From Candidatus Saccharimonadota bacterium (GTDB taxonomy: Bacteria > Patescibacteriota > Saccharimonadia > Saccharimonadales > Saccharimonadaceae): a stretch of 47,934 nt of DNA. Below the pieces are notes generated by a model. That model had not been told where the DNA came from and did not search any database. It was given only the letters and a program-made list of their open reading frames with translations. The stretch spans positions 1 through 47,934 of the forward strand of contig DAICYC010000004.1 of NCBI GenBank assembly GCA_027311865.1. Direction: 5' to 3'. A program made the translations under genes and the position numbers. This document shows positions 6,773 to 47,402 of the stretch, piece after piece (position 1 is the first letter of the stretch; each line of letters opens with the position of its first letter).

Positions 6773-7975
6773 ATGATGGTAGTCAACTATCGAGACAGCT
6801 TTTGGCGTCGTGTTATCTTGAGCTCGTTCGTATTCATCGGACTAGCGGTTCTTTTATTCGTATCTGGCAACTCAGTCAAGGCTCAAGAAGAAGCATCAGG
6901 TCGATTAGTCACAATTTACGACAGGGGTAATCAGCAGGTTTTGCTAACTGAAGCTGCTACGATAGCCGACGCCCTCACGGAAGCCGGTGTTGAGCTAGAC
7001 CGACGTGATGTTGTCGAACCTCGGCTGGACGAAAAGCTAGTCGCCAATGAATATAAGGTGAATATTTACCGTGCCCGACCAGTCACGATTATCGACGGTG
7101 CTATCCGTCAGAAGGTTATGACTCCATACCAAACAGCAGTCCGCATTGCCGAAGACGCTGAGATCAAACTTTATCCAGAGGATGACGCCACGGTCGCCCA
7201 GTCAACCGATCTATTAACGAATGGTGCTGGCCTGGAGCTGGTGGTTGATCGGGCCACAGCATTTGATTTAACGCTGTTCGGTAAACGTGCTACAGCCCGT
7301 ACTCAGGCAACAACGGTAGGCGAGATGCTCGATGAAAAAGATGTTCAGCTCGGTGAAAATGATCGTGTCGTACCGTCGCTCGAGACGACAATTACTCCCG
7401 ATATTAAAGTTCAAGTCTGGCGCGAAGGCAAGCAGACTGTCTCAGTCGAAGAAGAAGTCGATTTTCCAGTTGAAACAATCAAGGATGCCGACCGCCCACT
7501 GGGTTATCGTGAGGTTAGGACACCTGGAGTTAAAGGGCTTCGCAACGTAACTTATGAAATTACTGTCAAAGATGGCGTCGAATCAGATCGGGTTGAAATT
7601 GCCAGTCTCGAGACCAAAGCCCCGGTCAAGCAAGTTGAAGTTATTGGCGCTAAGTTGCCAACCCCAACTAATCCTTCAGAAAATCAAGTTCTCGGCAAGG
7701 CTATGATGCTCCAGGCTGGATATGGTGAAGACCAATGGCCTTGTTTATACAATTTGTGGATGCGTGAATCTGGTTGGCGAGTTAACGCCGGTAATCCGAC
7801 TTCGGGTGCGTATGGCATTCCTCAGTCATTGCCAGCCTCCAAAATGGCCAGCCACGGGGCTGACTATATGACGAGCGCCAGAACGCAAATCTCTTGGGGA
7901 CTGAGTTATATAAAGGGGCGCTACGGCTCGCCTTGTGGTGCCTGGAACCACTTCTTGTCGAATAACTGGTATTAG
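6773..7975 (+). CDS. DUF348/G5-domain protein with C-terminal resuscitation-promoting-factor/SLT-like lytic domain
   Basis: N-terminal TM, DUF348-like repeats (VTIYDRGNQQVLLTEAATIADALTEAG), G5-like segment, C-terminal W-C-LYNLWMRESGW...AYGIPQSLPASKMASHG...WGLSYIKGRYGSPCGAW. Confidence 0.85.
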   Translation: MMVVNYRDSFWRRVILSSFVFIGLAVLLFVSGNSVKAQEEASGRLVTIYDRGNQQVLLTEAATIADALTEAGVELDRRDVVEPRLDEKLVANEYKVNIYRARPVTIIDGAIRQKVMTPYQTAVRIAEDAEIKLYPEDDATVAQSTDLLTNGAGLELVVDRATAFDLTLFGKRATARTQATTVGEMLDEKDVQLGENDRVVPSLETTITPDIKVQVWREGKQTVSVEEEVDFPVETIKDADRPLGYREVRTPGVKGLRNVTYEITVKDGVESDRVEIASLETKAPVKQVEVIGAKLPTPTNPSENQVLGKAMMLQAGYGEDQWPCLYNLWMRESGWRVNAGNPTSGAYGIPQSLPASKMASHGADYMTSARTQISWGLSYIKGRYGSPCGAWNHFLSNNWY

Positions 7976-22182: not shown

Positions 22183-22538
22183 CATAAAAGCACATTTTGT
22201 GACTGTGACTACTGGTTACGAAACGCTTCTCTCGAGAAACGTGACGTTATCTGCGAGTGGGAGCACTAGACACAGATGGGCCTACCACAATTGTCGTACG
22301 GGTATCGAAATTATTAAACTAAAATCGGTCGAATCATACCCCTTTCTCTGCGAGAAGTAAGACTTAGTATGGTAGTCGCCTCTGTAGTAATACAGACGGC
22401 AGGAGAACGATAATTCGTAATCAGATCACTAGCGGTATTGTAACCCAAAGATCGGTTGCTGGAACCCAGCAACGCACCGCTCCTCGACGTCAATCAAAGA
22501 CTCGAGTTAAAACATCATCTATAGCTATCTACGCCAGT

Positions 22539-24967: not shown

Positions 24968-24996
24968 TTGACAAAAAAGCACTATTGTGCTATTAT
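24968..24996 (+). promoter_or_regulatory. strong sigma70-type promoter
   Basis: TTGACA-17 bp-TATTAT. Confidence 0.8.
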
Positions 24997-25002
24997 TCAT
25001 TT

Positions 25003-25390
25003 ATCATCGTTCACAACGTTGTGGTCGGTGGACCTTCACAATTCGGGATACCAGCAGGAGGCCTTATGCTGTAGCGTTGCCTTCCTGCCTGGGTGTTAGG
25101 CAGGTCGTCGGGGTGATAGTCATACCGTATCGAAAAATGAACGGTACTATGTCCGACGAAAATCAGTCGACAAACGATCGAGAAATCGAAAGGAGAGCAG
25201 CGAATGCTCTAGCTTTGCCCAGATGCCGGGAGAAGGCATCCAGTTACCCACCCGCCGGGTTCGGCGGATTTTACTGGGAATCGGGCGATCATGAGCTTAT
25301 GTCTGCACTGATGCGACTAGCCAACACGCCAAACCATCCCGTAGCCCCGTGCGGCAACCTACTTACTAGGTTGTCCGCACGGGGCATTTT
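25003..25390 (+). ncRNA. candidate structured non-coding RNA (about 390 nt) of unknown class
   Basis: Bounded by TTGACA-17-TATTAT and an 18-bp GC-rich hairpin; contains several perfect hairpins and a duplicated module. The only long ORF (frame of 24987..25403) stops after the terminal hairpin. Confidence 0.5.
25344..25385 (+). terminator. strong terminal hairpin
   Basis: GCCCCGTGCGGCAACCTA-cttac-TAGGTTG-t-CCGCACGGGGC followed by ATTTTCATTT. Confidence 0.7.
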
Positions 25391-25456
25391 CATTTGTCGT
25401 TAAATATTAACGATAACCTAATATCAAGGTGACGGAAGTAAGCTACAATAATACTA

Positions 25457-47068: not shown

Positions 47069-47097
47069 TTGACAAATAATCATAAATAATATATAAT
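47069..47097 (+). promoter_or_regulatory. perfect consensus sigma70 promoter
   Basis: TTGACA-17 bp-TATAAT. Confidence 0.85.
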
Positions 47098-47132
47098 ATA
47101 AAAGTACGCCCACTCGTCACAAAGGAGTTTAA

Positions 47133-47402
47133 GTGAAGCGTAACCTCAAGGCACTTCAGCACGAGAAGCGCAAGCAGTTGAAAATCGATCAAGTCGGCCG
47201 CGCCCACTACAGCGCTGTCCGCATGCACCGAGTGGAGCCGTTCCACGAGAACGCCAAGCTCCTCTACACTCGCCCGACACGTCGCCGTGTCAACAGCTTG
47301 CTCAAGCAGGCCACGATGTTCGACGACGTCGAGGACATTGACATCTTCGACGAGCGCGAAGCGGTGGGTCCGATTGCCTACCTGCACATGAACTTCTGCT
47401 AG
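47133..47402 (+). CDS. hypothetical small protein, 89 aa, basic N-terminus/acidic C-terminal half
   Basis: GTG start with AAAGGAG SD, C-ending codon bias, consensus promoter, terminator after stop. Confidence 0.75.
   Translation: MKRNLKALQHEKRKQLKIDQVGRAHYSAVRMHRVEPFHENAKLLYTRPTRRRVNSLLKQATMFDDVEDIDIFDEREAVGPIAYLHMNFC

Follow-up and report, generated by a model that had tools for sequence, protein, structure and literature searches.

The obgE-sbcB locus and the element of the window

In the window (the whole stretch of 47,934 nucleotides that was analysed), the genes lie in the order lysM-obgE-[element]-sbcB-uvrA, with the element between obgE and sbcB and on the same strand, where it starts with a sigma-70 promoter of its own. 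Direct reading of this promoter (24968-24996, plus strand, as all the features described here) gives TTGACA at 24968-24973, a 17-nt spacer and TATTAT at 24991-24996 with a TG preceding the -10 box (extended -10), amounting to 11 matches to the 12 consensus positions, and transcription is expected to start near 25003. It is the sole promoter-like site on either strand between 24900 and 25480, and nearly all relatives carry a counterpart, TTGAC(A/T)-N17-TATAAT, at the same position. A first-pass annotation had claimed here this promoter, three hairpins and a terminal stem, and our reading of the sequence confirms all of them at the coordinates given below. The long ORF that it described in the 24987 frame as overlapping the promoter does start inside it, and without a Shine-Dalgarno (SD) sequence; as a coding gene, this 138-codon ORF is unsupported.

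The 393-nt RNA of the window has a predicted folding energy of -164.5 kcal/mol (z -6.7), which none of 100 dinucleotide shuffles equalled. At its start there is a 5' hairpin (25005-25030) formed by CATCG...CGGTG plus an inner stem, a hallmark of the family with a counterpart in the relatives and with pair probabilities of 0.97-0.98 for its outer stem. It is followed by the conserved block ACCTTCACAATTCGGGATAC (25032-25051), which aligns to the family consensus GTACATTnACAAnTTGG and corresponds to the 5' arm of the family's end-closing helix P1. The core is predicted to be held by a long-range helix between 25093-25119 and 25303-25327, with pair probabilities of 0.8-1.0 in the full-length ensemble that come from the energy model only. 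The three hairpins did not fare equally in this fold. Hairpin 1 (CCTGCCT/AGGCAGG with a GGG loop, 25084-25104) has a probability of 0, since its arms are engaged elsewhere, with the first SD (25080-25086 with 25056-25061) and in the long-range helix, in such a way that it is mutually exclusive with both the sequestration of that SD and the core helix. By contrast, hairpins 2 (GATGCC-GGGAGAA-GGCATC, 25222-25240) and 3 (CCGCC-GGGTTC-GGCGG, 25252-25267) are retained, and together with the terminal stem they show probabilities of 0.5-1.0.

The long terminal hairpin (25344-25385), another family hallmark, consists of 11 + 7 bp with one bulged U and a pair probability of about 1; its counterpart in the relatives sits just before the P1 3' arm. 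It may double as the terminator, and ATTTTCATTTG comes next. The putative P1 3' arm, GCATTTTCATTTGT (25384-25397), could form 11 pairs out of 14 with 25038-25051, G-U pairs among them. This putative P1, ACAATTCGGGATAC with GCATTTTCATTTGT, is at the same position as in the relatives, but its pairing is weak and, for this member taken singly, does not exceed chance, as 8 of 35 foreign partners pair equally well.

The only well-supported cistrons of the window element are two Met-Leu minigenes (AUG-CUN-UAG) with near-perfect ribosome binding sites, and there is no long cistron. Minigene 1 (25056-25074) has AGGAGG at 25056-25061, a spacing of 4 and AUG CUG UAG at 25066-25074, and both its SD and its AUG are paired in the predicted full-length fold. 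Minigene 2 (25190-25212), just upstream of hairpin 2, has AAGGAG at 25190-25195, a spacing of 8 and AUG CUC UAG at 25204-25212, with a predicted ribosome site that is largely exposed. Two starts with a 6-mer SD were found in only 0.9% of the shuffles (P = 0.009).

A family of units in Saccharibacteria

Nearly all the named sbcB relatives belong to Candidatus Saccharibacteria, including Candidatus Microsaccharimonas sossegonensis (L203), and the obgE-sbcB synteny is conserved among them. Together with the gene order and the lysM-TM7 RNA at 22280-22405, these relatives assign the window to Saccharibacteria, in accordance with the first-pass annotation. Of 17 genomes of the genus, 15 have a unit in the obgE-sbcB gap, as do at least 20 further genomes spread over many other genera of the family; some loci carry a tandem pair (L021, L147, L144 and L196), and one genome (G008) has no unit and a gap of 53 nt. 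The layout begins with TTGAC(A/T)-N17-TATAAT, the 5' hairpin, the conserved block (A)CATTRACAAGTTGGATA, a long hairpin and a branched core, after which come the long terminal hairpin, a stretch complementary to the conserved block and, last, the terminator. Outside these hallmarks, the sequence is hypervariable and cannot be aligned between species. The window element lies in the family position with its own promoter, has the 5' hairpin followed by an (A)CATTRACAAGTTGGATA-like block, and contains at least one mini-cistron with a strong SD (actually two); as judged from its sequence, it is a divergent member of the family.

Pattern searches with the P1 block in 121 genomes yielded promoter-bearing matches upstream of sbcB, and the remainder resemble chance matches in coding DNA. 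Further units within the genome were sought by a promoter-anchored scan. The window's own genome has a second end-paired unit (contig C2, 5156-5755; L050), which includes a 60-aa ORF preceded by an SD and with a third-base G/C of 0.73; its neighbours, as read from translated ORFs, are the genes for a UvrD-type helicase and a tRNA-dihydrouridine synthase.

Other contents of the gap were also observed. At L024 (genome G014), there is a remnant of 103 nt in which the 3' half of the 5' hairpin is fused directly to the P1 3' arm and the terminator, an arrangement that looks like the result of an interior deletion. At L028, L031, L032, L143, L157 and L178, the gap holds ordinary-looking protein ORFs instead, so the site tolerates varied inserts.

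The first-pass annotation had pointed to the obgE-sbcB gaps of related Saccharibacteria as the place to test stem covariation, and P1 does covary strongly across the family. In place of a noisy search for long-range stems over wide regions, arm-swap and permutation tests were used. The mean pairing of P1 arms with their own partners was 25.1, compared to 13.3 ± 0.74 for permuted partners, and none of 20,000 permutations over all 36 elements was as high. In the aligned arms, with the 3' arm chosen as the best-pairing window and with 5 of the 36 elements (L014, L018, L022, L181 and L144) omitted because their arms fall outside the 14-nt register, 91% of the cells are paired and two-sided changes occur at 13 of the 14 pairs. 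The covariation score was 0.891, whereas shuffles reached 0.230 and slid partners no more than 0.138. In addition, each of the 32 elements tested had a more stable fold than its shuffles (mean z -7.8). These data support that the structure is under selection in the family and, as P1 covaries and the 5' block is conserved, that selection acts on the RNA.

The elements L025, L026 and L027 have several perfect hairpins whose loops are C-only or C-rich (TCCCCC), versus the loops starting with GGG in the window member, and loop-loop contacts are possible.

Known families were searched for the window element. Among the 4227 families of Rfam, there was no match above the gathering threshold and E-value mode gave chance matches only, in line with the earlier claim that the RNA belongs to no known class; RNase P and tmRNA were discarded as its identity, both being found elsewhere in the genome (contig C3). 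In 101 genomes, no DNA homologue of the window element was detected past the promoter. The element peptides gave nothing significant in Pfam and PHROGs, with no database homologue for any of them, and no earlier description of the family was found in the open-licence literature searched. The family is, thus, undescribed in Rfam, Pfam, PHROGs and those papers.

Ribosome sites, mini-peptides and codon usage

In 33 elements, 43 starts with a strong SD were counted, compared to 8.7 ± 3.2 (maximum 20) in 200 dinucleotide shuffles, an enrichment of about five-fold that supports that ribosome sites are under selection in the family; four members (L022 and L025-L027) are without a convincing strong-SD cistron. 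The encoded peptides fall into three classes, and their types recur in several genera. Peptides of class a have 6-8 aa and end in GFT or similar (MVRSGFT, MEIWSGFT, MDWPSGFT, (M)HYSGFT, VHTSGFT, (M)LHPEAGFT, VYTSGFI and MWSAGFV), and those with SGFT show synonymous codon variation, with serine encoded as TCN or AGT. Class b groups basic peptides of 5-7 aa, mostly UAG-terminated and of the ...RRHx* type (MMKWRHS, MMRKRYI, MKKRHM, VMRRHC, MHRRCM and MRRHM). Class c corresponds to ORFs of 28-55 aa, usually with a UGA stop, which are present in about half of the members. The peptides of the relatives are basic, Ser/Thr/Gly/Pro-rich or of only 2-8 aa, and they are neither hydrophobic nor membrane-spanning.

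The longer ORFs show a strong codon bias. About 93% of the third bases of the 28-55-aa ORFs are G/C, versus about 45% in the adjacent genes. In 15 of 16 long ORFs, third-base G/C ranges from 0.79 to 1.00, compared to about 0.55 at positions 1-2 and about 0.53 in the rest of the element, whereas values of 0.32-0.59 were found for the genes flanking the elements and of 0.41-0.62 for the ribosomal protein genes of the window genome. The 650 pooled codons have C268, G100, T29 and A12 at four-fold third bases, with 22 TTC and no TTT, and include no Trp codon. As this extreme G/C is restricted to third positions, RNA structure by itself is not a sufficient explanation of the bias. In the closest pair of elements (L166/L169), two 3-nt indels leave the frame of the 43-aa ORFs intact; 31 codons are identical, 2 differ synonymously and 9 nonsynonymously, and third-base G/C is 0.95 in both.

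Short ORFs with high third-base G/C were also seen elsewhere in the genome. A stand-alone cassette in the window (47069-47402) combines a strong promoter (TTGACA-N17-TATAAT) with an ORF of 89 codons that starts at 47133; third-base G/C of this ORF is 0.82, versus a genome mean of 0.51, and it has no PHROGs match. Two other regions of the window's genome, G000 (contig C11 around 80.9-83.7 kb and contig C9 at 7148-7589) contain short ORFs with values of 0.71-0.82, each behind a strong promoter; they belong to no known family and one is a putative lipoprotein.

Possible nature of the units and comparison with known systems

Because P1 covaries, strong-SD starts are enriched and tiny cistrons recur, we favour, with moderate confidence, the explanation that the family consists of end-paired, structured mini-mRNAs. 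The element would be a self-contained transcription unit, kept almost always between obgE and sbcB by family-level relatives, in which a strong sigma-70 promoter would produce a self-folding RNA of 0.35-0.9 kb, closed at its ends in most members by a P1 of 12-20 bp whose arms lie immediately inside the 5' hairpin and immediately ahead of the terminator. Within this folded and exceptionally stable, end-protected messenger, one to four tiny cistrons, equipped with strong SD sites, would load ribosomes, giving very short and fast-diverging peptides (2-55 aa). We infer from the sequence features that the RNA is produced, that it is stable and that it undergoes translation. The window copy would be reduced to its two Met-Leu-stop minigenes, with one ribosome site folded away and the other exposed; since this copy combines a weak P1 with the lack of a long cistron, and Met-Leu is all that its minigenes encode, it is the relatives that support the mRNA reading. 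In this way, an anonymous intergenic gap becomes a family with an architecture supported by covariation. If translated, it would represent a novel type of messenger in bacteria, zipped at its ends and polycistronic for peptides of 2-55 aa, which diverges fast at one fixed position in the genomes of obligate bacterial parasites.

A true non-coding structured RNA (a scaffold, sponge or regulator) could account for the very strong folding, the end closure and the own promoter, with GGAG motifs and short ORFs as by-products of purine-rich loops, and the window member without a long cistron and the members without a clear strong-SD cistron would fit such an RNA. We consider this rather unlikely, as it does not predict the excess of SD starts over dinucleotide shuffles, the synonymous variation of the SGFT peptides, including the TCN/AGT serine, or a G/C bias specific to third positions. 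Consequently, from the proposal of a structured RNA of unknown class, the own promoter, the strong structure and a covariation across Saccharibacteria are upheld, but a plainly non-coding nature is not supported, given these family data, the biased 28-55-aa ORFs and the two minigenes of the window. The end pairing, the SD sequestration and the short ORFs bring to mind hok-type mRNAs, which are small folded messengers with paired 5' and 3' ends, ribosome sites partly folded away and a short ORF, and from there a type I toxin-antitoxin-like unit in which an antisense RNA would control an end-paired toxin mRNA. This was tested and is unlikely, to the point that we give it hardly any weight: the minus strand has no promoter-like site between 24900 and 25480, the peptides are not hydrophobic or membrane-spanning, the window encodes Met-Leu only and, in contrast to hok/sok, the units have several mini-cistrons and are hypervariable at one chromosomal locus.

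The codon bias could also be attributed to the origin or the destination of the cassettes. G/C3-rich usage of this kind is typical of high-GC actinobacteria, and lambda bar minigenes tie up tRNA through peptidyl-tRNA drop-off. The units could, therefore, be host-directed cassettes, reaching an actinobacterial host as RNA or DNA, with mini-ORFs that match its codon usage and Met-Leu minigenes that, by analogy with bar, would tie up its tRNA. The contrast between the pooled third bases and the flanking and ribosomal protein genes (near 0.5) speaks in favour, as does the retention of the bias in the diverging copies L166/L169. However, a transfer route is not known, no secretion signal was found, and acquired DNA or the avoidance of AU-rich RNase sites are conceivable as other causes of the bias, so we regard this explanation as unlikely. 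Actinobacteria are known hosts of Saccharibacteria (PMC10746230). The corresponding idea of an interspecies effector mRNA, i.e., locus-bound, fast-evolving end-sealed mRNAs or cassettes with mini-ORFs codon-adapted to these hosts and translated in them, is put forward as a doubtful one; the third-position bias provides a testable handle on how Saccharibacteria act on their hosts. Alternatively, the gap could contain ordinary horizontally acquired cargo (moron-like, from phage or host DNA) with strong promoters, incidental structure and no RNA-level function, for which the protein genes at L028, L031, L032, L143, L157 and L178 and the further short, G/C3-rich ORFs that have promoters of their own elsewhere in the genome could be adduced. 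This is very improbable, and for the family it is strongly disfavoured by the covariation, since P1 and the conserved 5' block show selection on the RNA; moreover, phage and plasmid collections contained no match to the window element, nor to two element peptides, each of which was compared with one of the collections. A decaying relic is possible only for the window copy.

The preferred mini-mRNA reading can be compared with other known systems. Lambda bar-type minigenes and the axe-txe minigene (PMC8708949) have a strong SD followed by an ORF of two to seven codons, as the window has with two codons, but the minigenes described here lie, in repeated form, inside a large end-paired structured RNA that occurs as a family in Saccharibacteria. 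ROOL, GOLLD, OLE and other large structured bacterial RNAs are likewise of several hundred nt, heavily structured and transcribed as their own units, whereas the element has no Rfam match, is enriched in ribosome binding sites and shows almost no conserved sequence past the 5' block. The lysM-TM7 RNA (RF03005) is also a Saccharibacteria-specific structured RNA in the same gene cluster, but it is a cis-regulatory leader upstream of the lysM gene, and the element is unrelated to it in sequence and position. In the window, this leader was located at 22280-22405, upstream of a LysM/CHAP-like gene, and it adjoins obgE in many relatives too.
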